Assembly: GCA_963693315.1 (NCBI GenBank)
Contig: OY856187.1
Span: forward strand, 46,952,485-47,016,484
Source of the DNA: Diogma glabrata
Lineage: Eukaryota > Arthropoda > Insecta > Diptera > Cylindrotomidae
DNA: 64,000 nucleotides
Reading direction: 5' to 3'
Shown here: positions 1 through 62,399 of the stretch, piece after piece
How positions within the stretch are numbered: the first letter of the stretch is position 1
How the letters are laid out: every line of letters begins with the position of its first letter
Program-made: the position numbers and the translations under genes
The notes under the pieces: generated by a model
Told to the model about the DNA's origin: nothing
The model's input: only the letters and a program-made list of their open reading frames with translations
Databases searched by the model: none

Positions 1-640
1 ACTCAGAAACCTCCAACTCCAGAGGTATTTTTTTGAAAGAAACTGAATAAAAAGGTTTCAAACATTCTAAATTTATGAAGTTTTTAAAAATATTAGAATC
101 CAAACGGCCGTTATAACAGATCTAAAAAACAGAGTTTTTTCCTAGTATAAAGCTTCTAGTTTCTTAACCATGTGTTGGATTGGGCTGATTTACGAACTTG
201 TCCAAGATATTAATAAAACGCACATTTTTAGAAAAGGTTTTTTGATCTGGCTTTATAAATGCGACCGTGAGAGTGACGGTTGTTTAAAAAAAAAATTTTT
301 TTTGCAAACTTTTTTGTTGGAGCCGCTCACTCAGGAACCTCTAACTGCAGAGGTCTATTTTTAAAACCAATTGATAAAAAAGATTTCAAAAATTCTAAAT
401 TTGTTAAATTTTTTGAAATATTAGTATCCGAACGGCCGTTATAACGGTTTTAAAAAACCGATTTTTTTCAGAAAAAAGCCTCTAGTTTCTTAACCACGTG
501 TCGGATGTTGTTGATTCACGAACTTGTCCAAGATATTAATAGAACACACAAGTACAGAAAATTTTTTTGATCTACCTCAACAAATGCGACCGTGAGAGTG
601 CCGGTCGTTTTCGTTATATCTCATATCGTTTATATATATA
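1..640 (+). repeat. Tandem dimer of a ~325-bp repeat unit
   Basis: Two diverged copies lie head to tail. Landmarks recur at an offset of 324-328 bases: 'actcag/actcagg' at 1 and 329, 'aacggccgttataac' near 103 and 432, 'acttgtccaagatatta' near 196 and 521, and 'gcgaccgtgagagtg' at 261 and 585. The first copy is cut by the window edge, so more units may lie outside. No open frame of note and no family recognised. Confidence 0.8.
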
Positions 641-3330
641 TAAATTTTTTTTTTTTTTGTTTTTTCGTCTCCGCTTATCATATATAGTCGTTTGGCACAA
701 AAATTTTTCCGAAATTCCGAGATGAAGCCCATTGCAATAGGTAGATTTTTACATGAAATCTACCTAAAATGCGGTTTTAAAAATTGATTTACATTTAAAC
801 ACTTTAATATTTTTTACTTTTATACTCTCCTCCTAATACAAGTAATAAAACTCCTCATTTTTAATATTAGTATGTTCATTCACAAAACATTTAATAAGAA
901 AATAGATATCCAACCATGATCTTGCTATAAGCTGGTAAATGTTATAACTCTTCAAAACGCAATTTGCTTATCTAATTGCTAACTAATAAGCTTAAACTCC
1001 TGAAAATCTATTCAGATAATTAAAAATTTAAAGCAAACAGCAAAATTATAAGATTTTCTCATTAAACAATTTTTTTAAATAAAAATCAATTAAGTATTAT
1101 GAATCCTTATCTCATGTTTCCATTAATTAATTATCCTGACGGTTCAAAGAAAAGAATAATTTTGCAAAAAATTAATAAATATTTGGTACAAGCTCATTAA
1201 AGATTGAATTACAAAATTAACATAATATCGATAGTATCTACAAACACAAAAGTGTATTATAATTCGTTGTATAGCTCTCCTTTTAGAACAGTAATTTCCA
1301 TTAATTACTTAAAATATTTCTTAAGAAATAAAGGAAATCAATAAATTGCAGCAGATAAGAGGTCAATAACATTCGTCATATATAAATTAGCAAGCTAATG
1401 CTAGAGTTGTTGTCTTAAGTTCTATCTCTTGAGCATGGCGTTGAGTTTAGGTTCAACGATTGTTTTTCATACTTTTCCAGTATACATTTTCCATGTCTTT
1501 GTACTGCCAAATTTATTTAATAATTTATTTACCACACATATTGATTTCCAAAAAAAATTTTGTTGAATGGTGGAGGCGCCCAGCTTTGTTTGTGTTGAAC
1601 TCATGTAAAATGCTTTTCCAACAGTCATGTAAATCATTATTTAACTAAATAATTGTAAGCTGGTTTTAATTTATCAATCTATTTCCATTTTAATACGATA
1701 TTTATCAAAACAAATTGAAACGTTTACACATTTCCACTACACATGGTGGACTAAAATTATATAGATATATTTTCCATATAAATTTAACTCAACAAGAGTA
1801 TCCCTATGATTTATTTGCCTTCATTTCATTATGCATGCCTTACAAAAATTTTAACATTCATGTGATTGATATCAATTGAAAAGGTAGTTTAAAATGAATT
1901 TTTCAATATTTCTGTTATAAATACAACAAAAGCTTTTGGTATATAAAAGCTCTTTAACACATGTGAAACTAATTGATTTAGTTTTGAATGTTTGTTTTTC
2001 ATGTTTCATTTGTATAATAAATTAAATTTCCACTCTCCCTTTTCTAACTTTTTTCTATAAATCTTTTTTGTTCAGATTTATTACACATTTCTTGTGTAAC
2101 AAGGTAAAACATTTTCGATTAATGTAACGTGTCGGTGTTATTCTGTATGTAAATAATGAATTACTCTAAATTTAAAATGTATTGAATCAGTTGATTACGT
2201 TAGTTTTTGTTATTTTTGCCAAGAATTAATTTTGTAACATTTTTCGTGTATTTCTTTCTCTTTTAAATTTGTTCTATCAAATTTATGTTTACCACAATGG
2301 CAATCAACGAAATTAAACAATGTTACAGCCGAACATACTAATTAACAAAACAATGTTACTATTGAACGGTGGAGGCGCCCATGTTTTTTGTGTTGAAACA
2401 CAATTTCTGTTACTCTATTATAATAATTGTACGTGAAATCCAACTATATCTCGACTAAATCTGGAATCAGTAGCTAAAAGTAAATGCCAATCACTCAAAA
2501 AGGTCCACATGGAAAACACGCTTATAGATCCACTGGGGTAAAAACAATTCAATTACTCAAAGCCCAATTGTTTCTGTTTCGTTATTATTTTTTCTGTTGC
2601 TAAGTCAAAATCATGTAATCTATCAACATCAACAACTTTATCTAAAACTAAATCTGTATTAAAATACAGTTTAAATGATCCAAAAAAGGTCATTAGGTAA
2701 TCCCTTTTTTAAGAAGTATTCTACAATTTTTCTCATACAATTTGGTTTGCAATGGAACAAAATTCAAATTCAACAAATTTTCAAATAAATGGTAATCTAT
2801 CTTGTTCAAAATAAGTTTAATCTAAATTTGTACAAAGAAGAGACAGTAGAATAAACTATTTCTACATGTTTTGGTTAAAGCACTTTATACAATGTAGATT
2901 AATCTTCTTTTCCTTGTGTTATTATGAGAAAACAAAAGTGGAAATAGAGTTTTGTAATAGTTTTTTTTTGCTAACACTGAAATGATGAGATTAGAAAAAA
3001 TCTAAAATTTAAATAGAATATTTTTATGCTAAAACTATTTTTAGTTTGACAATGTTATGAAAATATCAAACAGCTCGAGTTCAACTTTCACACAAACAAA
3101 ATGACCTCAATTGCTTATCTCACTGAAAATAAAAGGAGGTTCTTGGCTTACCTTATAAAAGTCATTTTGCAGATTACTAAAATTAAATCCCCAATCTCAC
3201 ATAACAACAAAAGTAAATTTTTCGTGTCAGTGCGCTGTTGAAAAGAACAACAACAAATATGTTACACAAAAACCATAAGATAAAAGTTAAAAAACAAAAC
3301 CTTAATGTTTTTTTCTTATTTCTTTCCAGA
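641..3330. other. Unique AT-rich non-coding stretch
   Basis: No gene or transposon domain seen. It holds a short perfect hairpin at 739-764 (arms aggtagattt and aaatctacct) and two copies of a GC-rich motif, 1569-1582 and 2368-2381, in otherwise AT-rich DNA. A polypyrimidine tract ending in 'ccag' at about 3311-3330 looks like a 3' splice site. Confidence 0.5.
1565..2401 (+). repeat. Two copies of a 14-bp GC-rich motif 800 bp apart
   Basis: GGTGGAGGCGCCCA occurs exactly at 1569-1582 and 2368-2381. Similarity continues on both sides: 'ttgaa(t/c)' before it, and a T-rich run then 'tgtgttgaa' after it, so each copy is about 36 bp. Function unknown. Confidence 0.6.
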
Positions 3331-3546
3331 TTTCAGAACTAAAATTGTTTTTCTTAATTGTTCGTGATGTGAAGAAAAAACGGAAAAAAAAAAGAAAAAT
3401 CAAACAAAAGACTTTTAAAAGTAGAGAACAAATAAAATAGATGAATGGAGGAATTTTTTAATGGAGCTTTTGATGGAAGCCAAGATAAAAAATAAACGTT
3501 AAGTTTTTTCACTGTGATAAGTGAAAAGAACTTAAATTAATCTAAA

Positions 3547-8810: not shown

Positions 8811-8942
8811 ATAAATGTATATCTTTTTTTTCAGATTGGTTTTTGAGAACAATTAAGCTTAAGTACATATTGGAAATCACTTGAATTTTGCAATTCGAAA
8901 TAACTTTTTCATTTCCTCTAAAATTCCTTTAGAAAAAATTTT

Positions 8943-9016
8943 GTTGTGTTTCGTGTCAGAATTTGAACTACATTCATCAGAGACACATTGTTCAAATTCC
9001 GTGTGTCTTACACAAC
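8943..9016 (-). ncRNA. Hammerhead ribozyme, family A copy 1
   Basis: This 74-nt motif is identical to the three plus-strand copies, here on the minus strand. In order: stem III strand GTTGTGT, cleavage-site A, stem I AGACACA/TGTGTCT with a 14-nt loop, core CTGATGA, stem II with an 8-nt loop, core GAA, and stem III strand ACACAAC. Cleavage is expected after the A that follows GTTGTGT. Confidence 0.88.
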
Positions 9017-9618
9017 TTAGCCAAAGCGGCGATGACGAAACATATTTTAATTTTGATGTTCAGATAATTTCTAAATTGAAACTTGATCATTTTTCATATT
9101 TACTTAAGTTGAATTTTTCATCTATGATTACATATTGAAAATTGTATTTATTTGGTATTCTTTGTATTAAATTTCTAGATATTACGATGTGTGAATTCAT
9201 AGGATGAGAGAATATTCCGTTACATCTAAGTCAACATTCTAATCAACATCCTAAGTCACGAGTGTAAAGTCATTATTGATTGTTGCCAATCAATGCGAAA
9301 CTTAATATCTGACGTAAAGTCAATATGTTGTTATATTTTTGGTTAGGAAATATAGACAACATTAGGGAATTTTTAATTTCAGATTGGTTTTTGAGAACAA
9401 TTAAGCATATTGACTGACGCACAACATATTGACTTTACGTCAGATATTAAGTTTCGCATTGATTGGCAACAATCAATAATGACTTTACACTCGTGACTTA
9501 GGATGTTGATTAGAATGTTGACTTAGATGTTAACGGAATATTCTCTCATCCTATGAATTCACACATCGTAATATCTAGAAATTTAATACAAAGAATACCA
9601 AATAAATACAATTTTCAA

Positions 9619-9649
<31 letters not shown>
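9619..9649. repeat. (ATT)n microsatellite, 3' tail of the CR1-like element
   Basis: About ten ATT units lie at the junction between the element's 3' UTR and the repeat unit it entered. CR1/L2-type elements commonly end in short tandem repeats rather than poly(A). Confidence 0.85.
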
Positions 9650-10168
9650 TATTCATTGTTCTTCTTTACATAATGGTTTACAAGAAAATAAGCAAGCTTA
9701 CAATTAGATACTAAACCTAGATATTTACACAACAAAATAAAATAACTTGCAATCATTATTAAGATTTTATAAAAGACTGCTTCAGAGCTAATAGTTAGCT
9801 ATTTTGAAGCATATAGAACTTCGTTTCTTTTGAGCATGTAGAAGTTAGATATTTGATAAGGGTGCGGTATAATAGCCTAGTTTGCACAAAAATAAATAAA
9901 AATTTAAGAGAAAAAAAAAAAATAAAATGAAAATTCAAAAATATAACAATCCAAACATATAATTTTGGGTTACTATAAATTACATAAAAAAACAAATGTA
10001 TATATATATATATTCAAGATAAAAACAATATAAACCAACGTATGACATCAATCCATCAGAAGCACAATCAAAGGAACTTACCTGAAGCATGAATTTGGCG
10101 AAGCAAAGCGAGAAGTAAAATGATGAGCAAAGGAGAATGAGTATACATAGTTTGCGGAATATTCTTGT

Positions 10169-13129
10169 TCATGTAATGACGCTGAAAATTAACTCCTCAA
10201 CAGTATCAATCTGAGTCATGACCCAATTTTTAACACATCGTAATAATTTGGAAGTAGGGGAAATTTCGTATATATAATCAGGTAGTTTGTTTAGCAAGAG
10301 AGGGGCGGTATACGTAATGAAGTGTCTGAAAAGTTCTTTGTAAGCTCTAGGAACTAAAAACTTCCTTTTCCTCCTAAGACTAAATGGGTTATCTAATCGA
10401 AGTTGGAGGTATCCGCTTCTTAAGAAAAATAATTTGATAACTTTGTAAACATATAAGTTTCTCACAGGGAGAATATCTGCTTTCATAAATATAGGCATAG
10501 ATTTGGCCATTCTATTTTTCCTGTAGATAATTCTGATTGCATGCTTTTGAGCCACCAGAATAGGCTGCAGAGTAGTTTTATATGTGCCTCCCCAGCTGGA
10601 GAGACAGTATTGCATTTTGGATTCAACTAGAGCATGATATACTAGCTTGCATACACCTTCAGGACAATTTTGACGGAGGAGATAGAGTTTGCTGATTGAA
10701 TAGTTCAAATTCTTCTTTAAAACCAAGACGTGTTGTTTCCAATCCAATTTACAATCCAGTGTTACACCAAGATACTTAAAGTGTGATACATTTTCAATTT
10801 TGAAACAATCTCTACAACTTTGCGTACAACTTTGAGCATGATAACGGATACCATGATCAGTCAAAGGTAAGTTACTAGGTTTAAAGGACATCATTTGGGT
10901 TTTTGTGCTCAACACTAGATGATGTGAATCGAACCAGCGTCGAACTAGTGTTAGATCCTTTGTCATGTTGCTTAAGTTGGAAGATATTGAATCACATGCA
11001 TAGGTCATAACTAAGTCATCCGCAAAACCAATCACTTAAGCTATAAATCCAGAAGTAAAGAAAGAGTTGATATAAATCAAGAATAAGAGTGGTCCTAGGA
11101 CAGAACCTTGTGGAACACCAATATTAATTTCAATCGGGTCACCAAAACCATTTTTAACACGTACTCGTTGAACTCTATTTTGAAGGTACGATGAAAACCA
11201 TTTGAGAGCAACGCCTCTGAAACCAGCATGATACATTATTAAGAGGAGAATTTCATGGTTTACAGTATCAAACGCTTTGGAAATATCCAGGAAAAGGCAT
11301 GTGGCCACTAAATTATTGTTTAAAGAAGAATATATTTTCTCTAGGAAGATATTAAGAGCGTCTTCAGTGCTACAATCAGCGGTAAAACCAAATTGTCGCT
11401 TATCTAAAAATTTAGTTTTGATTAAGTAAAGTGATACTCTCCTCTTAACAAGTTTCTCCAGAATTTTTGAGAACGTGCTCAATAATGATATGGGACGGTA
11501 ATTGTTCATATCATTTCTATCTCCTTTTTTGTAGATTGGTACAACAACGGCGGACTTTAGCAATTCCGGGAAAATACCTTGTTCAAAGCTCAGATTGAAG
11601 ATGAAAGTTAAAACATCAGCAATTAGTGGAATAATTTTTTTAATTAGAGCCGGATTCATCCCATCTAATCCAGATGAGTGCTTATTTTTGAGGGTGTATG
11701 CAGTTTTTATGACTTCATCAACCGATGTAGGGATTAAAAAAAATGACTTTAAATTAGATGTAGAGTAAAGTAATGTTTCATCTACTACGGTGTTATCCGA
11801 AATATTTTTGTTAAGAATTTCCAAAGGTATAGACGAAAAGAAAACGTTGAAAGCGTTAGAAATTTCTACATCGTCTGTTAAACTCTTTCCGGTTAGGTCG
11901 TTAATATCATTAATTAAATTATTATTACAACTACTACCAATCAATTCATCAATAAGACGCCATTACGCTTTGACGTCATTTTTTTGCTCATTGAATTTAG
12001 ATAAATAATAATTACGTTTCGTCATTCCAACTCTATTGCGTATCTGCTTACTTAAAACTTTACAATGGTTTTGTAACGTTAGATTATTTGGCTGACGTTT
12101 AGCTTTGTTGCAAAGTTTATTTTTCTTTTGTATTAAAATACATAAATCTTTCGTGATCCACGGTTGCATTTTGTTTTTGGTTTTAGATTTATATGACGGA
12201 GACTCAGACCTACAACAATCTATGATCACTTGAAGCTCATTTATAAATATTTCGTACGATATTGATGGATCGACTTGGCTAAACACATTTGACCAATCAT
12301 ATCTATACAAAAGCAGATTCATGCTATCAAAGTCGTACCTGAACGAATCTTTAGGAGTAGTAACATTGGGATTTAATACAGTTGGAAGAACGAAACGAAT
12401 CATATCATGATCAGTTATGTCGAGCTTTGAAGTTTCACAAACTGGAGATATATCGGCATATTTAGATCTATAAAATAAATGATCCAGACAGGACTTTTCT
12501 CTTGTGGGCCAATTTATTAAGGATGTTAGTCCATAAGAAGACATAGTGAGTAAATAATCATCAACGTTGGGAGAGTTTTCCAGAATATTTATATTGATGT
12601 CACCTAGAAAAACTAAATTTTTGCTTCTAATCTTATTTAGAACAGCGTCAATTTCTGTTAAAAACAATTTTACCGGATGAAAATGGAAACGGTACAGGCA
12701 AAGAAAGGAGTACTTTAGACAATCAAGCTCCAAATCTATCTGAAAACAATCTGCAGATATTAAGTCATATGTTTGAAACTTACTCACATTGATACTGTTG
12801 TGAACATAAACCAGAACCCCGCCCGCCCTATACTCACTGTTACATTTACAAAAAATACTGTAACCATCGATTTTATAGTTATTAGTTTCATCATCTCGAA
12901 TCCAGGTTTCAGTCAAGAAAATTACTGCAGGCAAATCACCAAGAGTTACAAGATTTGCTAATAATAGATTGAAGTTCCTTCTAAGGCTTCTGATGTTTTG
13001 ATGTACCAGGTTAATTTTATCTAGGGATAAATTAAAATTAAAATTAGAATTTGTGGCTACTGGACTTGAATTACTTATGGTATATTGAGGAGAGCTAGTA
13101 TGGTTGTCAATTTGCAGTTGACTTGCCAT
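10169..13129 (-). pseudogene. CR1-like ORF2: APE endonuclease plus reverse transcriptase, two in-frame stops
   Basis: ATG at 13129, 53 nt downstream of the ORF1 stop. One frame of about 986 codons is interrupted only by TAA at 11965-11963 and TAA at 11038-11036; there is no frameshift. The N-terminal 388 codons are the endonuclease, with QNIRSL, LTETW, GGVLVYV, GDININ and TDHDMI. The second part holds reverse transcriptase motifs: a YRPISLLS box, [28 protein letters not shown] and FADD. The second stop falls just before the FADD catalytic motif. The last part carries YLGV and a SSWGG-type thumb segment typical of CR1/Jockey enzymes. As it stands the copy cannot make a full enzyme, but two point changes in about 3 kb mean it is young. 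Confidence 0.85.
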
Positions 13130-13182
13130 GTTTAGTTTTATGTTTATTCTATTTTCTTATATAAAGATAAGAAAAAAATAAT

Positions 13183-14139
13183 TTAATTATTATTTAAGAG
13201 TTGCAAGTCATCTAAATGATTGACCACTATACGAGCTTCTCCATCACCTTTTCTCAGAAAAATTTTTCCATTTCGTGTCCATAAGTATTTAAATTTAGAT
13301 TTCAGCTTGAAGTCTTTTGCCTGATGTAATAAAATCCGATTTGTTTTAGTTAGACATTCATTTAGAAATAGCGGTGTATCTTCTTCAGTATTAAAACCCA
13401 AAAATGATGCTTTTAATTTCTTTTGATTTTTTCCTTTTGTAATCATAATTAGTTGTTTCAAATGATAATTGACAAATTTAACGAAAATTTTACCGGTTTC
13501 AATTTTTTTGTTCTTTAATAGATGTTGTTGTGAAGAAATGCTGGTTTTGTTGTTATGTTTGTTTGGTTTTATTTTGTAGCATTCATCAATGTCATTTTTT
13601 GTTACGTCAACATTTAACTTGGAAAATATATTTATGACGACATCATACGGTGACTCTTCACAGTTTAATGGTATCCCATGAATTTCGATACAGTTTCTTA
13701 GAGATTTTTGTTCAAGATCATCTAACAGCGATTGTAGCTGAAACGTTTTTGATTTTAGACTCTCATTTTCTTCTTTTAGCGATCTCAGTTGTTTTAGAGC
13801 GTCTTCTATTAAATTAAATTTAATTTCTTGTGATTTCGCGTTATTTGTTATTTCAGCTTTTGTATCAAGGAGTTCCGAGCGGAGATCATTGATTTGTTTA
13901 GCAATGGTTTCTAAGGAAACCACATTTGATGTTGTTAAGCAAGATGCACTTTTGACAATATTTTTAGTTTTTGAAGTACAGTTTGCACATTTCCAAGATC
14001 TTCGCTGGTTTTGTAAGAATTCAATATCACTAGGAGTGACATTCACACATTTCAGATGAAATACATCACCACAATCACAGCACACAACCGAAGGTTCACC
14101 ATTACGTATAACTTTCACAGAACACAGTTTACATGACAT
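13183..14139 (-). CDS. CR1-like ORF1 protein: PHD finger, coiled coil, FP25-like RNA-binding domain
   Basis: 318 residues from ATG at 14139, intact. Residues 3-53 form a PHD-type zinc finger: CKLC, CCDCGDVFHLKC, then WKCANC. Residues about 75-145 are rich in heptad leucines and charged residues, likely a coiled coil for multimerisation. From about 148 (NCIEIHGIP) to the end the sequence resembles the Baculo_FP-like domain of many CR1 and Jockey ORF1 proteins, ending in a segment with YLWTRNGKIFLRK. The likely role is binding element RNA in a ribonucleoprotein particle with the ORF2 product. No stop or frameshift, unlike ORF2. Confidence 0.85.
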   Translation of the reverse strand: MSCKLCSVKVIRNGEPSVVCCDCGDVFHLKCVNVTPSDIEFLQNQRRSWKCANCTSKTKNIVKSASCLTTSNVVSLETIAKQINDLRSELLDTKAEITNNAKSQEIKFNLIEDALKQLRSLKEENESLKSKTFQLQSLLDDLEQKSLRNCIEIHGIPLNCEESPYDVVINIFSKLNVDVTKNDIDECYKIKPNKHNNKTSISSQQHLLKNKKIETGKIFVKFVNYHLKQLIMITKGKNQKKLKASFLGFNTEEDTPLFLNECLTKTNRILLHQAKDFKLKSKFKYLWTRNGKIFLRKGDGEARIVVNHLDDLQLLNNN

Positions 14140-14322
14140 TTTTTATATATGTAGATCAAGAAATATGTAGAATGTTAAAGAATGTTTTTACTGCTTAATT
14201 TAGATTTTAGACAAAGAAAAATGAATTTACACCAATTTATAATAAAGTAATACTTTCACCAATTTATAATTATATTTTTAAATTTATTAATTAATTTGTT
14301 GATACAAATTTGCGATCCGCAC

Positions 14323-14370
14323 CCAACAAATGACAAATTGTATATGCCAACAAATGACAAATTGTATATG
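14323..14370. repeat. 24-bp tandem duplication at the CR1 5' junction
   Basis: Two exact copies of a 24-bp segment beginning ccaacaaatg sit where the element's 5' end meets the family A unit. This is probably a by-product of 5' end joining. Confidence 0.75.
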
Positions 14371-14484
14371 TAATCATAGATGAAAAATTCAACTTAAGTA
14401 AATATGAAAAATGATGAAGTTTCAATTTAGAAATTATCTGAACATCAAAATTAAAATATGTTTCGTCATCGCCGCTTTGGCTAA

Positions 14485-14558
14485 GTTGTGTAAGACACAC
14501 GGAATTTGAACAATGTGTCTCTGATGAATGTAGTTCAAATTCTGACACGAAACACAAC
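14485..14558 (+). ncRNA. Hammerhead ribozyme, family A copy 2
   Basis: Same 74-nt motif, 549 bp upstream of the copy at 15034, in the unit directly next to the CR1-like insertion. All core bases and both long stems are intact. Confidence 0.9.
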
Positions 14559-15033
14559 AAAATTTTTTCTAAAGGAATTTTAGAGGAAATGAAAAAGTTA
14601 TTTCGAATTGCAAAATTCAAGTGATTTCCAATATGTACTTAAGCTTAATTGTTCTCAAAAACCAATCTGAAATTAAAAATTCCCTAATGTTGTCTATATT
14701 TCCTAACCAAAAATATAACAACATATTGACTTTACGTCAGATATTAAGTTTCGCATTGATTGGCAACAATCAATAATGACTTTACACTCGTGACTTAGGA
14801 TGTTGATTAGAATGTTGACTTAGATGTTAACGGAATATTCTCTCATCCTATGAATTCACACATCGTAATATCTAGAAATTTAATACAAAGAATACCAAAT
14901 AAATACAATTTTCAATATGTAATCATAGATGAAAAATTCAACTTAAGTAAATATGAAAAATGATGAAGTTTCAATTTAGAAATTATCTGAACATCAAAAT
15001 TAAAATATGTTTCGTCATCGCCGCTTTGGCTAA

Positions 15034-15107
15034 GTTGTGTAAGACACACGGAATTTGAACAATGTGTCTCTGATGAATGTAGTTCAAATTCTGACACGAA
15101 ACACAAC
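15034..15107 (+). ncRNA. Hammerhead ribozyme, family A copy 3 (reference description)
   Basis: Stem III pairs GTTGTGT (15034-15040) with ACACAAC (15101-15107), 7 of 7. The H17 nucleotide is A15041. Stem I pairs AGACACA (15042-15048) with TGTGTCT (15063-15069), 7 of 7. The core is CTGATGA (15070-15076) and GAA (15098-15100), with A15.1 and U16.1 present. Stem II is TGT/ACA, a bulged G, then AG/CT, closed by TTCAAATT (15083-15090); its first pair is an A-C mismatch. Loop I contains AATTTGAA (15052-15059), the exact complement of loop II, so a kissing interaction is possible. Stems I and II are closed and stem III is open, which is type III topology. In a tandem transcript, cleavage would release 549-nt monomers. 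Confidence 0.92.
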
Positions 15108-15582
15108 AAAATTTTTTCTAAAGGAATTTTAGAGGAAATGAAAAAGTTATTTCGAATTGCAAAATTCAAGTGATTTCCAATATGTACTTAAGCTTAATTG
15201 TTCTCAAAAACCAATCTGAAATTAAAAATTCCCTAATGTTGTCTATATTTCCTAACCAAAAATATAACAACATATTGACTTTACGTCAGATATTAAGTTT
15301 CGCATTGATTGGCAACAATCAATAATGACTTTACACTCGTGACTTAGGATGTTGATTAGAATGTTGACTTAGATGTTAACGGAATATTCTCTCATCCTAT
15401 GAATTCACACATCGTAATATCTAGAAATTTAATACAAAGAATACCAAATAAATACAATTTTCAATATGTAATCATAGATGAAAAATTCAACTTAAGTAAA
15501 TATGAAAAATGATGAAGTTTCAATTTAGAAATTATCTGAACATCAAAATTAAAATATGTTTCGTCATCGCCGCTTTGGCTAA

Positions 15583-15656
15583 GTTGTGTAAGACACACGG
15601 AATTTGAACAATGTGTCTCTGATGAATGTAGTTCAAATTCTGACACGAAACACAAC
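15583..15656 (+). ncRNA. Hammerhead ribozyme, family A copy 4
   Basis: Same 74-nt motif at +549 from the copy at 15034, with no difference seen. It is the last full unit before the right-hand flanking direct repeat. Confidence 0.9.
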
Positions 15657-16013
15657 AAAATTTTTTCTAAAGGAATTTTAGAGGAAATGAAAAAGTTATT
15701 TCGAATTGCAAAATTCAAGTGATTTCCAATATGTACTTAAGCTTAATTGTTCTCAAAAACCAATCTGAAATTAAAAATTCCCTAATGTTGTCTATATTTC
15801 CTAACCAAAAATATAACAACATATTGACTTTACGTCAGATATTAAGTTTCGCATTGATTGGCAACAATCAATAATGACTTTACACTCGTGACTTAGGATG
15901 TTGATTAGAATGTTGACTTAGATGTTAACGGAATATTCTCTCATCCTATGAATTCACACATCGTAATATCTAGAAATTTAATACAAAGAATACCAAATAA
16001 ATAAATGTATATC

Positions 16014-20047: not shown

Positions 20048-20176
20048 ATGGCGTCGTCAAGAAGTTTCAAGTGTAAAAATAGCCCTAATTCATTTTGTTT
20101 TATTTGTGGAAGTAACATAATACATACGGCTAAAAGAGTCACCCCATATATAAGAACTGCCTATCTTCATTACTAA
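20048..20176 (+). CDS. Short open frame resembling a captured zinc-finger N-terminus
   Basis: 42 codons from ATG to TAA. The peptide has FKCKNSPNSFCFICG followed by a basic stretch and AYLHY. C-x8-C-x2-C spacing with N-S-P and F-C-F-I-C-G resembles the N-terminal zinc-binding motif of a large family of uncharacterised invertebrate proteins (FCYxCGxxT ... KKAYxxYFG). It stops where that family would continue with its second half. Located in the middle of a transposon, it may be a captured gene fragment. Expression is unknown, and 42 codons is little evidence. Confidence 0.35.
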   Translation: MASSRSFKCKNSPNSFCFICGSNIIHTAKRVTPYIRTAYLHY

Positions 20177-20690
20177 CTGATATTTTCCAACTCCTAGAAT
20201 AAATCCGAGGCGGGAAGAGCTAGATCATGTCAAAAAACTTCACAAAAAAATCTCAATTTCGAGAAAAACCATATAAAAATTAAATACATCTTTTGTCCAA
20301 AAAAGACATTTCATAATCAACTAACTGATATTTGTCAACTCCTAAAATAAGTTCGAGGTGTGAGGAAGAGATCAGAAGCTAGATCATGTTAAAAAATTTC
20401 ACAAAAAAATCTCAATTTCGAGAAAAATCATATAAAAATAAAATACAACTTTTGTAAAAAAAGACATTTCATAATCAACTAACTGATATTTTCCAACTCC
20501 TAAAATAAGTCCGAGGTGGAAGGAGCTAGATCATGTCAAAAAATTTCACAAAAAAAATCTCAATTTCGAGAAAAATCATATACAAATAAAATACAACTTT
20601 TGTCAAAAAAAGACATTTCATAATCAACTAACTGATATTTTCCAACTCCTAAAATAATCCCGAAGTAGGAGGAGTTAGATCTAATACGAA
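20170..20690. repeat. Four ~150-bp tandem units inside the transposon
   Basis: Each unit runs 'actgatattt(t/g)ccaactccta', 'gagctagatcatgt', 'tctcaatttcgag', 'aaagacatttcataatca'. The last unit is truncated. Duplicated at 23010-23530. Confidence 0.75.
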
Positions 20691-22887: not shown

Positions 22888-23016
22888 ATGGCGTCGTCAA
22901 GAAGTTTCAAGTGTAAAAATAGCCCTAATTCATTTTGTTTTATTTGTGGAAGTAACATAATACATACGGCTAAAAGAGTCACCCCATATATAAGAACTGC
23001 CTATCTTCATTACTAA
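22888..23016 (+). CDS. Second copy of the zinc-finger-like short frame
   Basis: Identical to the frame at 20048 through the 2.84-kb tandem duplication. Same reservations apply. Confidence 0.33.
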   Translation: MASSRSFKCKNSPNSFCFICGSNIIHTAKRVTPYIRTAYLHY

Positions 23017-24656
23017 CTGATATTTTCCAACTCCTAGAATAAATCCGAGGCGGGAAGAGCTAGATCATGTCAAAAAACTTCACAAAAAAATCTCAATTTC
23101 GAGAAAAACCATATAAAAATTAAATACATCTTTTGTCCAAAAAAGACATTTCATAATCAACTAACTGATATTTGTCAACTCCTAAAATAAGTTCGAGGTG
23201 TGAGGAAGAGATCAGAAGCTAGATCATGTTAAAAAATTTCACAAAAAAATCTCAATTTCGAGAAAAATCATATAAAAATAAAATACAACTTTTGTAAAAA
23301 AAAGACATTTCATAATCAACTAACTGATATTTTCCAACTCCTAAAATAAGTCCGAGGTGGAAGGAGCTAGATCATGTCAAAAAATTTCACAAAAAAAATC
23401 TCAATTTCGAGAAAAATCATATACAAATAAAATACAACTTTTGTCAAAAAAAGACATTTCATAATCAACTAACTGATATTTTCCAACTCCTAAAATAATC
23501 CCGAAGTAGGAGGAGTTAGATCTAATACGAAAACAACCTATATATAAATCAATTATGTTGCAGAGCTTAATTTATTCTTATAGTTAATTTTTTTTTCCAA
23601 ATTTTGAGTTTTGACTTTCTTTGGGAAAACTTGAATAACTTGGTGCAAACTGCACCAATATTCGTATCTTTTAGCTTAAAAGAAAGAAAATAGAAGCTTC
23701 TATAGGCTTCAAGAAATTAAAAAAAATTAGTGTCTTTATTTGTTCAAAATTTATGGTGTTGAAAATGGAAAAATTTAAAAAAAACGTGAATTTTTCTTAA
23801 CGGATTTTTACAAAATATAACTCAAAATGTTTGTTGGCATATTTACTATGCATTTGTTTTATTATTATATTTAATTTGTTTGTTTTGTAAAATATGAGAT
23901 CTAAAGACCGAAACAACATTTTTGATCACCGAAAAAATTGGTTTGTCGTGAATATCTCAAAAACAAGAGCTAACAAAAAAAAATGAATATGATATTCGTG
24001 TTTAGAAGGTCCAAATCCATAAGAAAAGTTGGGTTTTATTCAGGGAGACAAAAAAAGTTCAAAATTTGTAAACTAGTGTAATTATTCCACACACCTAATA
24101 ATAAGTATTTTAGCATCTTCGTAAATAATGAAAATATAATTTTTGTTCGTTTGTTAACTGAGTTCATCTTTGAATTTATTTAGTTTCTTCCTAAAATAAT
24201 AATAATAAATTAAAAACTAATAAGCATTTTGATTTTATTTTAATAATAATAAATAATGAATGAATGCAAAAACGTCTTTGCAACTATCGGTTAGTTTATT
24301 TGAAATTTTAATTCGTGTTAAACAGAATTCTGTTGAAATTTAGTTTAGTTGTGAGTCGTAGACTAAAAAAATTCTAAATTTGGCTCAACAATATTGAATA
24401 GATTTTCAATTTCATGTCAAAAATAAATAAGAACTATATTTTTTAATGCAAAGCATATGTGATTTTTATATAGTTTTCAGCAAATTCATTGAAAATAAAT
24501 TTCTAACTAAGCAGCCCTGAATAATAAATATCCAATACGCAATCCAATGATAATGATAAACAATGTTTCGCCAAATCAAAATTTGTATTTATTCACCATT
24601 TGCTTATTAATTGACATTTTATTTTGTGAATAATAAAGAGTTTTAGTGCATTTTTT

Positions 24657-30525: not shown

Positions 30526-33299
30526 TACTAAGACAATAGACGCAAAAATGTTTTCCAACTCAAAAGAAACTTTTGAATGTAAAATAAGTTAATAAATTTT
30601 AATAACTGTATTTATTTTCTTTAACCTACATATATAGTTTGTATGGTATTTTAAAAAGTTTATTCAATAATAAAATATTTGTAATTTAATATTAAAATAC
30701 AATCTTTTACTTTATGATTCCACAATAACATAATACGAACATAATGCCAAAAGTTCCTAAATAGATTTAGTTATTTATACGGCTTTTTTGTTTGCAGTCG
30801 AGACTGTCAAATTATTTTTTATAAGAGTGACAAGTGATTACTAAAAGTGATAAATAAACATTTCATTTTTTTATGCCATCTAATACAAAGAAAATAATTG
30901 CAGAAGTGTTTTCCTATTCAAAAGAAACTTCTGTTTGTAAAATAAGTAAATCATTCTTAACAATTGTATTTATTTTATTTATTGTACTACATATATAATT
31001 TTTATAATATTTTAAAAAGTTCATTCAACTGATTCCCGACAGTCATATGCACAACGAATTTTATCTTTAAAACAAAAAATATAGCTAGTACTAAACTTTC
31101 ACAAGTTGTTAGATATAAAATAAGCTTCAATTTAGTTAAAAAAAAGGTGTAGCGCCATCTTTTCTTCAATTACACCGTTCTTTTCTTATGTTACACCATT
31201 AAAAGTTATTTCAAAAAATTAACAGTGTACATTTTTAAAAACTTTGTTCCAATACCTATTCAACGACATATCATTTATGAAAATCGATTGAGTAGTTTTT
31301 CTACAATCGCTCATCAAAATGCACTCACATCACAAAATAACAAAAATTGAGGGGCACCCTGTGAAGACCCCTGGTTGAAAAAAAGAATTCTAAGAGAACT
31401 TGTATTTTTTATTTATGAAAGACTATCTATAAACAAAAATAGTTAAAATTAAAAGGGGTCAAGTCAAAACGATGTTGAATCTTCGTGAAATTGCTCGTAT
31501 ATGTATATAGTTCAATAATTTGTCTTTCACAAATTTTTGTTTGTTTTGTTTATATGTGCAACAATATTAAATTTTTGTTTTGTTTTGAATTGATGAGGAA
31601 AATATGGAGGGGCTGAAATCTCACAGCTCTGAGATATCAAGACTTCGGTCTGGGTTAAGGAATTTGATATAGTTTTCGGCAAAAACCTTTTATGAGGACA
31701 TGGTTTTTAGTTTTGGTCAGCGATGTATATCAAACATAACTTTTTGTTAAAGTACATGTATATTTTATCTGTTTAGACATGTATTACAAAACTGACACGA
31801 AACATCAATACATTGTCGGCAAATTATAACAGCAAATTAACATAATTTTGTGAAAAGATTATACAATCAGCAAACTACCCAAAACCCTCTCCATTTAGCG
31901 TTTGGAGAAAATATTTCAAAATCACACATTCATATTTCTTTCAAAATTCCAAAAATAGTCGAGGAAAATTAGGTTTTAACTTCTAAGTCCTCAGGGACAG
32001 CTCCGATTTTGATGATTTTTTTTTAAATGTGTGTTTTTATATATTATTTGAAATCAGAAACATTACATTGTGCGCAATTAAATATTTATATTGTTTAAAT
32101 AATAAAAACATAATTTATGGAGAGAAAAAATTTTGTCACGGTATTTTTTAACTTTTAAATAGTATAATTCAAAAAATTTGTTTTGTTTTCTTTTTTAATT
32201 TTTAAAAGCTTTAAATTATACGAATATTGTAAGAAAAAAATTGTAAATAATTATAAATTATTTTGTATTTATTTTACATTTAAATATGAAAATATATAAT
32301 TCTAAATTCAGAAAGTGTAAACTATAAATTCAGGAAATTCGATCATTTTAATTCGATGATTAAAGGGCAGAGAAGTCCCCATATAATGAATAAGCATATC
32401 CATAATCCCACAAAAAAAATAAAGTCCTATTTTCATATAATTTAAATTATATGAGTTGAACATGTATGATTCATAGTAACATAACTCTCTCAATTTTAAA
32501 GTTACAACTTCCATTAAAAACTCGATTTATAGGTTCTTTCAAAGCTATAAGATGATATATATTCCAACATGCCTAAACCCTTCACCTTCAAATTGTTAAG
32601 GGTTGAACGACTCGAAAGGAGTGATCCGTGCACTATAATGCAAACTTGAAACAGTTATATCTTTGGTATTTTTTATCCCACAGAAAATAAAATAAAACCA
32701 ATTTTTGGTTAAGAAAAAACCTACGTTTTTGAGAATTTTTTAACGTATATTTGTTAGTTTTAGAGTTATTTTGAACAGGAGGTACCTTCTTAGGAAATTT
32801 GAAAATTCATTTTTCATTATTATCAAACTTTTTTCGGAAAATACGTATTCTAATCTAGCAAAGCTTCTGGATCACATAGGTAACACTAAAAAACAGCTAG
32901 TTGAAAAGGGGCTATGGCCTATGGTCAAAATAAATTCTATTAGGAATCACCGAAATTTTAACGCTGAGTTTCTATTTTGAATTCGAGATGCCCGCATCAT
33001 AGATTGGTTTTTTTTAATGTAAACGACTTGAACTAGTATCGAGTTTGATGGCTTATAATAATAAAACTTTTAGTTTTTAATGTATTTAATTTTTTATGAA
33101 ATAAACTTTTATTGTAGAACTTCAAATAATATATTTAGAAAAAAATCAAATAATTTAATTTTTAATTTAGATGTCTGAACACTCAGATTGTTTGACTCGA
33201 TATAAAATTATTTTTAATATATTTATTAATATGAAAATTTATTTCTTGTTTTTATTTTAAAATTCAAGTTATCAGCTGATTTAATTAATTTCTATTATT

Positions 33300-34070
33300 T
33301 CTGGATTTAACCCAGATATTATTGATAAAATATTAAATCGAAATTCAAAAAGAATAAACAATCATAGATCTATAAACAATTTGAACACTAATACAGATTT
33401 AAAATATATTTCTATAAATTACACAAATTCACTTCTCAACATAATAACTAATCAATTTAAAAAATACAAATTTAAAATTTCTTTCAAAACAAATAACAAT
33501 CTGTATAAAAATTTCAAATTCAAAGAAAAACCTAAATTAGAAGAATGCTCTGGCATATATCAAATAAATTGTGATTCCTGTGATAAATTTTATAATGGCC
33601 AAACAGGTAGAAAATTTATAAAAAGATTTTCGGAACATCTATTTTTGCTCAACATCTAATCGACGAAAATCATACATATACAAGTTTCGAAAATAATTTA
33701 AAAGTTTTACATTTTTGTAACAAAGGCCCTCTCATGGATTCAATGGAAGAGTTTGAAATATATAAAGCTATCAAGAAGTCACCATTTCTAATTTTAAATG
33801 AACAACTTTCATTTAGTTCTAATATTTTATACAATTTAATTATAAATTAATACCTTTCTTTATTCTTTTGTTCTTGCCATATTTTATAGTTTTAAATTTT
33901 CTCATTTTTGATTTGAATTTTTTATGTTTAATATAGTATACATATTTTTAGAAACAAATTAAAATTTTTAGATTATAATGTCATATATATAAATTCTTTC
34001 ATTGATGATGGATATTTATATCCGAAACGCGTCTGAAATTTATATTTTTAATAAAAGTTGTTAGAAAAAT
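33300..34070 (+). pseudogene. Penelope-like element, 3' part: GIY-YIG endonuclease, C-terminus and tail
   Basis: The frame from about 33310 to 33659 contains SGIYQINCDSCDKFYNGQTG followed by RKFIKRFSEH, a GIY-YIG nuclease domain with the PLE-specific CDxC insertion (CDSC). A frameshift at about 33648 moves the frame, after which AQHLIDENHTY, a LMDSMEEFEIYKAI segment and the C-terminus run to TAA at 33850. The reverse transcriptase part is absent, as in a 5'-truncated insertion. The 3' tail carries a hammerhead-like motif at 33997-34038. PLE proteins combine a telomerase-related reverse transcriptase with this GIY-YIG nuclease. Confidence 0.8.
33997..34038 (+). ncRNA. Hammerhead-like motif in PLE tail 1
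   Basis: Stem I TTTCA (33997-34001)/TGAAA (34034-34038); core TTGATGA (34002-34008, C3 replaced by T); stem II GGATAT/ATATCC (34010-34023); GAA (34024-34026); stem III strand ACGCGT (34027-34032), a palindrome; then C34033 as the cleavage position. With stem III self-complementary, the fold works best as a dimer. Hammerheads with very short stem III are known in PLEs. Confidence 0.6.
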
Positions 34071-42989: not shown

Positions 42990-45900
42990 GATACCCAGTT
43001 TTTTTTGTACTGTTTAGTGCTGAAATTTAGGCGTGGCCGGATTTCAGTATCTATACCTGCAATGGCAAAGGTATAGATCTGAAGTCTAGGTCTCAACAAA
43101 ATGTCAGCAGAGTGAACCAACAGCTTAGCATTCCTTCACCAACATAAGAGGTCTCAATTCGAATCTAAACTAATTCGAATCACTACATCGAAAAAAATAA
43201 ACCTGACATATTTTTTCTTACCGAAATAATTGTCAGTGGCAAAGCATCGAAATTGGAACTCGATAAATACCGGATGCCTAGTTACGAATTGGCACATTCC
43301 TTTTATAACAAGCATGGTGTCTGTGTATATGTTCGAAATTCACTTTCATGCATGAGAATTAAGGCTTACGAGTTGAACTCTAAGCACCATAATTCTCTAG
43401 CACTGAAGATCTCAGGTGTTGATGAAACTATGTTTATAATAGGATTATACAGACCCTTAAATTACCCCCCCCCCCCCAGGATGTCCAATTTTCGATCGAA
43501 TATCGGCTAATCTAGACAAGATTACCACGGACTACCCCAAAGCAAGATTGGCCATTCTTGGGGACTTTAATATTCATAATAAAGTATGGCTTAAGTATTC
43601 ATCGCGCACTGACGACGTAGGAAGGCAAGCCGAACTGATACTCGCAGATTATCACGGTTTGACGCAAATGATAAAGTGTCCCACTAGAATCCCAGATAAT
43701 TCACATCATAACAAAAATTTGCTAGATCTAATTTTTACAAACGAACCATTTGCTGCGAAGACAAAAGATGAACAACCCCTCGGAACATCGGACCATTTAC
43801 TAATATCAGCAATAGTGCAATTTACATCACCGCCACAAATTAAAGCAAATCCTCGTCGTTTTTGGAATTATAAACGCGCTGACTGGGAGGGACTGAGAAA
43901 CTTTTATGATGAAACACCTTGAAAAACTATTTGTTGTGTTGATCAAGATCCTAGCACATCAGCACTAAGAGTTTCTGAAGTCATAAAAGACGGAATGCGG
44001 CAGTTTATTCCAAATCGGTAAATCACTCCTACAACTGAGCCTTGGTTCACTCGGGATGTTGATGAGGCAGTGAGGAATAAATGCAAAGCATTTAAAACGT
44101 ATAACTCAATTAAAACACCTGAAACCCAAAGCGCGTATAAGAAAGCCAGAAAAATTAGTAAAGACAAAATAGACTTGGACAAAGATGCGTTTATCCAGAA
44201 GGAAGCAAAGAAATTCGCCCATCTGGCTCATGGAGAACCCATCTGGCTCACGTAGTTTCTTTCAGGCAGTTAAATCAGTACAGAGTAATTTTGCTCGATC
44301 CTCTATCCCAACATTAGTTTTGAACGACATTCCCATAAGCGACTCGAAAGAGAAAGCGGATCTTTTGGGTCGAATTTTCGCAGAAAACTCAAACATAATC
44401 GCACCTCTCCATTCTCCCACACTTATTTCCCCAGTTGTAACGCATATGAAACCAATTATTTTTCGTTGCAATATTGTACGGAAAATGCTTCTTTCTATCA
44501 ATATCAACAAATCTGCTGGGCCCGACGATATTTCACCCCTCATTCTTAAAAATTTTGCTAGGTAAATAGCTCCAATTTTAACAAAAATTTTCTATTTATC
44601 TTATAAAACTGGAATATTTCCCGATTCTTGGAAGCTGGCCAGCGTTCAACCCATATCAAAGAAAGTCAGTAAGAACGACCCTAACAATTATAGACCAATT
44701 TCAATTCTGTCGGTTTTGGCTAAAATATTTGAAAAATATGTTAACTGCAATTTAATAGATTATTTGGAAATGTTGCGAATTATTAATGATAAGTAGTATA
44801 GTTTTCGTAGAAGTCATGCAACAGGTGATCTGTTAGCCTATGTGTCCCATCTCTGGAACAAATCGCTGGAAAATCATGGTGAAACATTCAGTATTTCACT
44901 TGACATTTCTAGAGCATTTGATAAAGTGTGGCATAAAAATCTCATAGCTAAATTAAAATCTTATCGCATAGACCATCTTACTGTCTCATGGATTCATAGT
45001 TTTCTTACAAGTCGCCAATTTCATGTTAATTTAAATGGTATCACATCCAATATTTTCACAACCAATGCTGGGGTTCCCCAAGGTTCTGCACTCTCACCAA
45101 CCTTGTTTCTTCTATTCATTAAAGTCTTACTTATTCCCACAGTGCACCCAATCCATAGTTTTGTTGATGACCGCATATTGCATGCATCATATGCATCTCC
45201 TAAATTTCGATCTCATACTGCAGTTACCACTGATAGAGAGCTGCTTAATTGATTCTATCAACAAAGACCTTGATCATATAATGGAATAGGATGATGGTAA
45301 TTTTGTTTCATTTAATCCAACCAAAACAAAACTATGCCGTCTTTCACGAATAGAGCGACATAAAAATTTCCCTATTAAGCTAAACCATGAGGAATTGCGT
45401 GAGGTTGAATCAGTTAGACTTCTTGGAGTGAATATTCGAAATAACCTGAAATGGAATAAACAGGTGTTCAACCTCGCCAAATCTGCAATGCAAAAATTAG
45501 GATTCTTGATTCGGTATAAAAAATATTTCAATTCCGATCAAATTTTGCTAATCTTCAAGACCTTTATTCGTCCATGTATGGAATACTGCTGTTATGTTTG
45601 GGGAGGTGCTTGTCAGTCAACAATAAAATGTCTAGACTCTGTACAGGGAAAAGCAATACGGTTGATTGGTAATACTGAGCTAACGGACCAGCTTGATTCT
45701 TTCCAGCACAGAAGAAATGTGGTTGAATTGTCAATCTACTATAAATACCACTTTAGCGAATTCTCCTCTAAGGAAATTCAAAACATCCTTCCATCGTGTG
45801 CGCAATTTAATCGGCGAACAAGAACTTCAGAGTCATCCCACCCATTTGCTGTCCAAATACCTCGTTGTAGAACTATGTCCTTTCAGAACGATTATTTTAA

Positions 45901-46081
45901 AAGAGTGGCCAAATTGTGGAAGTCAATGCTCTCCTCAGGCATTTAAAGAAAATGTCCATCTTCATTTAAAACAATTAGTATAGTTATCCCTATATCCTCA
46001 TTCCTTCCATTTTCCTCATGTCCTTCCTTTATAGTTGACATTTAGTGTGCTAAACATGTCTAACTAATTAATAAAAAAAAA
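42990..46081 (+). pseudogene. Jockey-like non-LTR retrotransposon, decayed (endonuclease and reverse transcriptase)
   Basis: The endonuclease runs from about 43190 (KPDIFFLTE-like segment, GVCVYV at about 43316) through GDFNIHNKVW (from 43560), a NLLDLIFTNEPF segment and GTSDHLLIS. Reverse transcriptase follows: NKSAGPDDISPLIL near 44505, NYRPISILSVLAK near 44687, SISLDISRAFDKVWH, AGVPQGSALSPTLF, then FVDD at about 45160 in place of the catalytic FADD. The C-terminal domain (45395-45946) has LLGV and a RPCMEYCCYVWGG segment. Frames break at a C13 run (43465-43477), at 43922, at TAG 44563-44565, near 44795 and near 45250. It ends in a short 3' UTR and poly(A) at 46070-46081. It is closely related to the element at 46209 but much older. 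Confidence 0.82.
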
Positions 46082-46208: not shown

Positions 46209-46709
46209 TGATCTACGGGTCTGACTGCCCTGCGTACTCCAGTCCCTGCCATTGACATATGAGTTAGCGTGAGATATCACATACCACTGGCAATGGCAGG
46301 AGATGTCATTAGCCAAGATGATATCTTAGGGTGCTGGCGGACGAACTTTCATTAGTCAACGGCAGCACTTCCAGTCTTAGCTGGGCAGCGTTCCGTAGCG
46401 GTACCGCTCATTAGCTCTTCCGAGGAATCGAACCAACACGTAGTTATGTGTGGGCTTTGTGCCTCGATTAAGGTGGTGGGCGGTGCGTCTGGGGTGCGCT
46501 GCATCAGCTGGATTATTGGCATTTAGTTTTGTTTTGTTTTCTGCAAATTTCTCACAATTTGTTTTTCACTTATTATTTTGTTATTATTTCTTCATCTTAT
46601 CATGAAATATTGGCATATGTCATATTTTGTAGTATGATAGGATTTTTTACTTAGTTATGCATTTTAAAATAAAACACAAAAAAATAAAAATAAACATTTT
46701 GATATATAT
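46209..46709 (+). other. GC-rich 5' untranslated region of the Jockey-like element
   Basis: Begins 'tgatctacggg' and is clearly GC-richer than its surroundings up to about 46520, then AT-rich to the ATG at 46710. Related sequences occur alone at 39680 and 17751. It contains 'gtagcggtac' and other inverted segments that may fold. It probably carries the internal promoter, as in other Jockey elements; that is inference. No ORF1 is present here. Confidence 0.6.
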
Positions 46710-49700: not shown

Positions 49701-49733
49701 GTTGTGGGACCCAGGTCTAGACCTAGGTCTTAA
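46710..49733 (+). pseudogene. Jockey-like ORF2 (endonuclease and reverse transcriptase), single nonsense codon
   Basis: One frame of 1007 codons from ATG 46710 to 49733, interrupted only by TAG at 47280-47282, where relatives have tryptophan after GDFNVHNKS. The endonuclease has VQNICGLNAN, FLTETQVS, GVCAFIHESV, GDFNVHN and GNSDHYLISS. Reverse transcriptase has a NYRPIALLSVLSKVYEHY box, [39 protein letters not shown] and SFADDSTLH with the catalytic aspartates intact. The C-terminal domain has RLLGV and a YIRPCMEYCCQIWG segment. No ORF1 precedes it, so the element is single-ORF or has lost ORF1. The 3' end is about 60 bp with a stem-like 'tgtgttgttgtgacaca' and a long A-tract ending near 49811. 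It is one substitution from an open ORF2, so a recent insertion. Confidence 0.85.
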
Positions 49734-62256: not shown

Positions 62257-62399
62257 CCTTTGACAAGTTTATATAGTGAGCCGCTTGATCCAAGACAGAC
62301 GCCCGCTTCAAGCCGCCCCTAACATGGAGAACAGACGCTTGAGAACATTGGTTTTAAGGCGCCAATTCGCCATGATGTACCATGATTGACTAAGCAGTT

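Follow-up and report, generated by a model that had tools for sequence, protein, structure and literature searches.

Organization of the repeat locus

The window, that is, the whole 64,000-nucleotide stretch of Diogma glabrata DNA analysed here, contains an array of a 549-bp repeat arranged as two arms of opposite orientation, which we name E1 and E2 after the sites at which they end (Table 1). It was formed by retroposition, is flanked by a target-site duplication (TSD), has two recurring 3' ends and a head-to-head junction, and is interrupted by a LINE. The three plus-strand units are identical over their shared length, and the end of the E1 arm is followed, on the minus strand, by a run of 8 A. 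The LINE ends in a (TAA)n tail; its ORF1 begins in a PHD-like manner, and its second reading frame is broken by stops; RVT_1 was matched above the Pfam cut-off and PHD just below it. Further non-LTR retrotransposon-like reading frames are present in the window, as are two tandem-repeat arrays with periods of 148-159 bp and the same consensus start, about 2.8 kb apart.

Each frame of the 549-bp unit carries 9-18 stops, and the longest open stretch is 92 codons. An endless ORF, as found in some viroid-like agents, was rejected because of these stops, and no delta-antigen-like ORF was found in the unit. As a 549-nt circle the unit folds to -111.7 kcal/mol, whereas 60 dinucleotide shuffles average -85.1 (sd 5.4).

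Table 1. Features of the repeat locus and of other places mentioned in the text. Positions are those of the window unless a contig or locus of the assembly is named.
Feature	Position	Strand	Remarks
TSD, left copy	8811-8823		ATAAATGTATATC
E1 arm	8824-9409	-	586 bp of repeat; 3' end after unit position 312
Hammerhead motif copy 4	8943-9016	-	motif scan; within inverted arm
Head-to-head junction	9410-9420		11 bp matching neither arm
E2 arm, part one	9421-9619	+	unit 351-549, ahead of LINE
LINE	9620-14367 (ends ±2 bp)	-	later insertion into E2 arm, not part of the putative retrozyme
E2 arm, part two	14368-16003	+	3' end at unit position 538
E2 arm units	14368-14916, 14917-15465, 15466-16003	+	last unit partial
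Hammerhead motif copy 1	14485-14558	+	motif scan
Copy 1, stem III	14485-14491/14552-14558	+
Copy 1, H17	14492	+	A; predicted cut 14492/14493
Copy 1, stem I	14493-14499/14514-14520	+	loop I 14500-14513
Copy 1, CUGAUGA	14521-14527	+
Copy 1, A·C mismatch	14528/14548	+	followed by stem II 14529-14531/14545-14547
Copy 1, loop II	14532-14544	+	GAA 14549-14551
Hammerhead motif copy 2	15034-15107	+	motif scan; predicted cut 15041/15042
Hammerhead motif copy 3	15583-15656	+	motif scan
TSD, right copy	16001-16013		overlaps final bases of array
Tandem-repeat arrays	20172-20681, 23012-23522
Penelope-like remnant	33285-34038		GIY-YIG-like fragment 33285-33656, by eye
Type I hammerhead-like motif	33997-34038		in Penelope-like remnant
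Non-LTR retrotransposon-like frame	43169-45946
Non-LTR retrotransposon-like frame	46668-49733		long open frame 47283-49733, 816 aa, RVT_1
Non-LTR retrotransposon-like frame	59173-62268		long open frame, 1031 aa, endonuclease domain at start
Second repeat family	C2:427725-429952, C790:49318-49992, C3:5110495-5112146, C1:323783081-323783618		assembly G000
Second repeat family, decayed copy	L071 3940-4001 and L072 1-160
Full-length COX1	C5:20072602-20091844, C1:340085418-340103998, C1:82445132-82446469		large contigs, assembly G000; also in mitochondrial contig C1788

A type III hammerhead motif in the repeat unit

The first-pass annotation of this DNA described three plus-strand hammerhead motifs at an exact spacing of 549 bp and an inverted fourth at 8943-9016, with a complete core, a type III topology, two perfect stems of 7 bp (I and III) and a closed stem II. 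A motif scan of both strands of the 64 kb (stems of at least 4 bp, and three of the first four stem II pairs) recovered these four motifs and nothing else, as did a scan with stems of at least 4 bp in which stem II was not demanded. The four copies are identical 74-nt sequences, the plus-strand trio being spaced by 549, and all have the type III helix order. Each carries CUGAUGA and GAAA, the invariant core bases C3, U4, G5, A6, G8 and A9 and G12, A13 and A14, the pair A15.1-U16.1, an A at H17, perfect stems I and III of 7 bp each and a loop I of 14 nt. The presence of a type III hammerhead-like motif in each full 549-bp unit is thereby supported, but stem II is not closed as described: its base is an A10.1·C11.1 mismatch, followed by 3 bp (U-A, G-C, U-A). 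Hammerheads with a stem II of only one or two pairs have been reported, and U·U at 10.1-11.1 is tolerated and supports more cleavage than other mismatches (PMC3088659); since U·U is the best mismatch, A·C at this position should be worse.

The motif had also been called very unlikely by chance, and at the level of the window this holds. Among 4000 first-order Markov sequences of 64 kb, the core with both stems of at least 7 bp, stem II not being demanded, occurred 5 times, a rate of 0.00125 per window. Calculated by hand, the chance for one given 549-bp unit is about 1e-5. For the whole 1.33-Gb genome, the same rate predicts about 26 chance occurrences (0.00125 x ~20,750). A covariance-model search, which the first-pass annotation had named as a test capable of refuting the motif, gave no Rfam hammerhead match above threshold. 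No hammerhead family was matched across the whole window at the Rfam cut-off, none was among the matches up to E 10 in a permissive search of 14349-15000, and RF00008 and RF00163 detected nothing in the whole genome. Because the control genomes were silent as well, the hammerhead models may be blind to this variant.

The minimum-energy fold of the motif (-22.3 kcal/mol) is a hairpin other than the hammerhead, for which the nested fold gives -10.2 kcal/mol, or -12.2 with a 5-bp stem II. This hairpin retains stem III and pairs loop I to loop II, the two loops being perfectly complementary over 10 nt (duplex of 12 pairs, -14.7 kcal/mol). Within the hammerhead, this loop pairing could be a kissing contact; a stem I-II pseudoknot is reported in about 40% of hammerheads (PMC3088659). 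The weak stem II together with the 10-nt loop complementarity suggests a ribozyme that is held by a kissing-loop contact or is dependent on a protein, and for one Penelope hammerhead cleavage is reported to depend on the presence of its protein (PMC11167929). Self-cleavage of the present motif is a prediction.

At 30 sampled genomic places there are 108 full copies of the motif; CUGAUGA and CGAAAC are preserved in 105 of them, and 84 are identical. Substitutions per 1000 cells amount to 3.1 within the motif versus 4.6 outside it, and variants common to at least two places are found at 3 of 74 motif sites and 15 of 475 other sites. Conservation of the motif, as judged by comparing these copies, appears at most slight, and the sampled copies are too alike for covariation in the stems. 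An exact 26-mer of the motif was absent from viral and prokaryote contigs, phage records gave short chance matches alone (in 7 records), and a very lenient BLAST search returned mostly AT-rich noise. The hammerhead reading is favoured by the presence of the motif in each full unit, the window-level chance estimate and the intact core sequences of the sampled copies, and is weakened by the base of stem II, the Rfam searches, the minimum-energy fold and the only slight conservation.

Genome-wide distribution and target-site duplications

A 35-nt core stretch, searched with up to 3 mismatches, has 917 + 852 = 1,769 matches in the 1.33-Gb assembly, and its reversed control has 0. COX2 from a mitochondrial contig of the assembly has its best named match in a crane fly (Cylindrotoma, 88% identity over 95%); further crane flies and lower Diptera make up most of the named matches that follow, an Anopheles and a Dytiscus also being among these, and the host is therefore likely related to crane flies. 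The 549-bp repeat is the unit of a retroelement family that is dispersed through this genome and has no long reading frames. Both flanks are available at 27 mapped loci, namely the window locus, L012 and L031-L055; L008, L027 and L028, each of which is cut at an edge, were mapped as well. The mapped loci are the best-scoring ones (40 of 815 candidates were scored and 30 of these 40 places examined), so long arrays are over-represented among them. TSDs of 11-16 bp are present at 18 of the 27 loci, with a pooled AT content of 0.845 versus 0.70 in the window. L037, L047 and L048 have 8-bp direct repeats only, L038 has a displaced 14-bp one, and no TSD was found at L031, L034, L039, L040 or L046. 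A second sample, consisting of the first 100 listed core matches in order of position (all exact, on one contig), falls into 33 clusters. Eleven of these are two-stranded, and 11/11 run minus-then-plus, that is, head to head; one comprises 12 minus and 12 plus units. Four of the 11 (L031-L034) are already among the 15 mapped head-to-head loci described below, and 7 are new.

The genome also contains a second high-copy tandem family with a spacing of 515-517 bp and head-to-head pairs (1773 candidates, of which 40 were scored; Table 1). It is related to the 549-bp unit, with 69% over unit ~382-596 in a decayed copy at L071/L072. An altered but paired stem I was predicted from that copy, and pattern tests found no intact form of it. 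The decayed form occurs solely at the decayed place, and the upstream stretch is therefore private to that place; a covariation test with the second family gave no support. As a separate observation, full-length COX1 occurs in large contigs of this assembly as well as in the mitochondrial contig (Table 1), which reflects either recent nuclear mitochondrial insertions or assembly joins.

Ends and junctions of the arms

The outer 3' ends of the arms cluster at two unit positions: E1 at about 308 (range 301-314, ACCAATCTGAAAT) and E2 at about 537 (range 530-543, ATACCAAATAAAT). The short site sequences are ACCAATCTG for E1 and ATACCAA for E2; the two sites are about 229 nt apart, and ACCA precedes both. 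The exact start is open to a shift because of A/T identity at the ends, and at L051 and one L031 end the alignment extends to 548-549 through chance agreement of flank letters. Fifteen of the 27 mapped loci have the head-to-head (inverted) arrangement, and 13 of these 15 combine one E1 end with one E2 end, the exceptions being L031, with two E2 ends, and L034, with E1 and an end at 459. Nine of the 12 single-arm loci end at E2 and three at E1. Taking the E2 share of all arms (24/41), the binomial P for at least 13 mixed loci among the 14 with E1/E2 ends is 6.4e-4.

Of the 43 arms at the same 27 loci, 39 continue through the ribozyme cut site and 37 extend beyond one unit; unit positions 124-128 showed neither insertions nor deletions. 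The templates were thus uncut at the ribozyme site, being either circles or uncleaved multimers. No pile-up of ends at the cut was found in the 30 places, where a single one of 47 arm 5' ends lies within 115-137; RNA ends at the ribozyme cut were rejected on this ground. Seven of the 47 5' ends fall at 273-279 and nine at 505-527, shortly upstream of E1 and E2, respectively (under uniform positions, clusters of this kind have P 0.0007 for a width of 7 nt and P 0.016 for one of 23 nt). This clustering could also stem from pause sites or AT microhomology.

The arms overlap by 1-4 bp at 9 of the 15 head-to-head junctions and by 12 bp at L033, while 1-22 extra bases are present at the other five (the window, L034, L046, L049 and L053). 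A master inverted copy that was recopied as such was rejected, as the inner junctions differ between sampled loci.

Penelope-like elements

In Penelope-like elements, both target strands are cut and extended from two internal start sites, the targets are AT-rich, and head-to-head copies with TSDs are formed (PMC11167929, PMC3846280). The two start sites described in PMC11167929 lie 30-40 bp apart, are alike for the two strands and are without homology to the cut DNA. These elements have been proposed as movers of animal retrozymes, as a strong candidate on the indirect grounds of shared hammerheads, tandem copies and co-occurrence (PMC7229834).

The window itself contains a Penelope-like remnant (Table 1), whose type I hammerhead-like motif has U at C3, a form that recurs in related copies. 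Pfam assigned no family to the GIY-YIG-like fragment at 33285-33656, for which there are 11,152 candidate genomic places, 150 of them scored. A longer relative, a 474-aa frame in L071, matches RVT_1 and then, below the Pfam cut-off (16.6 bits, E 0.0096), GIY-YIG, which is the Penelope order. A regular expression allowing C or U at C3 found a type I hammerhead-like motif downstream at 10 of 12 Penelope-like loci. L071 also contains a near-perfect 2.9-kb head-to-head palindrome of a Penelope-like copy (536-3410), which abuts a run of N and may be either a real inversion or an assembly artefact; no conclusion here is based on it. No E1/E2-like 3' ends were found in the one subfamily represented by the 12 loci: 10 end at or near AATTGATTAACT-like sequence and 2 inside the ORF. 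Because the ends of this subfamily are unlike E1 and E2, we assign no partner enzyme from it.

Origin of the arrays

On balance we lean towards an animal retrozyme whose hammerhead is an unusual, type III one and whose integration follows a Penelope-type route. Tandem transcripts would be cut by the predicted hammerhead and may close into 549-nt circles. A Penelope-type endonuclease/reverse transcriptase would cut both strands of an AT-rich target, and each target 3' end would prime at an internal site of the RNA, E1 serving one of them and E2 the other; from the recurring genomic 3' ends we infer that reverse transcription starts at these two sites. It would then pass at least one unit, either round a circle or along an uncleaved multimer, and the two cDNA arms would be joined head to head.

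A more specific version, which we put forward tentatively, is that one hammerhead-born RNA circle serves both target ends in a bilateral target-primed integration in which the arms meet head to head. The staggered 3' ends would prime at E1 and E2 of the same circle, and two enzyme subunits would run round it in rolling-circle reverse transcription. Their stops would cluster just past the priming sites, and two tandem cDNA arms would result. Stops in these positions are what a circle occupied at both sites should produce, but a linear RNA with a pause site in each unit would produce them too. The main template of Penelope elements is unprocessed RNA (PMC11167929), which speaks against the need for a circle. 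If true, this version would mean that an animal has a viroid-like circle, equipped with a type III ribozyme, from which integration is primed bilaterally at the target.

Other origins were weighed against this retrozyme. Head-to-head inserts are also made by L1-type twin priming, though these carry a single tail and have a single internal site, which varies. Here a LINE would copy a linear multimer, and a second, internal priming would create a 5' inversion, with no circle or Penelope enzyme involved. The length of the TSDs, the head-to-head arms, the LINEs present in the window, the junction overlaps (1-4 bp at 9 of 15, and 12 bp at one more) and the 8 A that follow the window E1 end all fit such an event. 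We nevertheless hold it to be unlikely, in that both outer ends recur at fixed sites, E1 being paired with E2, the ends inspected lack a long poly(A) (the A run at L036 is internal, before E2 sequence), and the 5' ends of the E2 arms do not lie beside the E1 site, where a template common to both arms would put them. An ordinary satellite, amplified as DNA by unequal crossing-over and inverted duplication with no RNA stage, could account for the identity of neighbouring units and for the array of 12 minus and 12 plus units. That origin is very improbable given that the arrays are small, dispersed and associated with TSDs, that their 3' ends recur at two positions and that their junctions vary from locus to locus.

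The retroelement may also be as described while its hammerhead is a chance motif or dead relic and its RNA never self-cleaved. The mismatch at the base of stem II, the lack of an Rfam match, the competing fold, the roughly 26 such motifs expected genome-wide, the absence of a pile-up of ends at the cut site and the at most slight conservation all point this way. The chance of about 1e-5 for one given 549-bp unit argues against it, as does the tie of hammerheads to tandem repeats and Penelope-like elements in animals (PMC7229834, PMC7761336), and we regard it as rather unlikely.

It is an open question in the field by which enzyme, and from which form of RNA, animal retrozymes are mobilised. 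The insertion scars themselves, with two internal ends, both strands apparently primed and head-to-head arms, point to Penelope-type integration and supply exact sites for testing it. The retrozyme favoured here would place the type III hammerhead in an animal retroelement of high copy number, whereas this ribozyme is known mainly from plant circles and from certain insect and HDV-like RNAs.

Comparison with known systems

Our literature search, in which subscription journals were thinly covered, brought up neither a tandem retrozyme of type III from an animal nor any head-to-head arrays of retrozymes. The first-pass annotation had stated that animal hammerheads are mostly type I, which agrees with PMC7229834 for those in repeats: animal retrozymes there have type I hammerheads and RNAs of 170-400 nt. 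Like these non-LTR retrozymes, the 549-bp repeat forms dispersed, tandem, AT-rich and non-coding hammerhead arrays, with TSDs longer than 4 bp at 18 of 27 loci and apparently no LTR. It differs in its type III hammerhead and its length of 549 nt; head-to-head arms with two recurring ends are not mentioned for animal retrozymes in the accessible text of that source.

With plant LTR retrozymes (PMC7229834, PMC7761336) the repeat shares the type III hammerhead and a distance of several hundred nucleotides between ribozymes. Unlike them, it has no LTR dimer, is AT-rich and leaves other integration scars, its TSDs being 11-16 bp long rather than 4 bp. Type III motifs in animals have been described in HDV-like RNAs and as genomic motifs of termites and dipterans, with further dipteran work announced (PMC7936874). 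Those hammerheads resemble the present one in the type III order within an insect genome and in loop I-II pairing, but have a longer stem II, a bulged helix I and an extra hairpin. The termite motifs are isolated ones. The 549-bp repeat has no delta-antigen-like ORF. The pDo500 repeat of Dolichopoda cave crickets is likewise an insect repeat of about 500 bp with a hammerhead in each unit, and is described as satellite DNA that makes up about 5% of one genome (PMC2837043).

Penelope-like elements share with the 549-bp repeat the head-to-head copies, the two internal starts, the AT-rich targets, the TSD and a hammerhead. The repeat is non-coding and its hammerhead is type III, whereas theirs is type I. 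The TSDs of 11-16 bp found here compare with 8-10 bp reported for Penelope-like elements, and the putative start sites, about 229 nt apart with one per strand, compare with sites 30-40 bp apart that are alike for the two strands in Penelope (PMC11167929).
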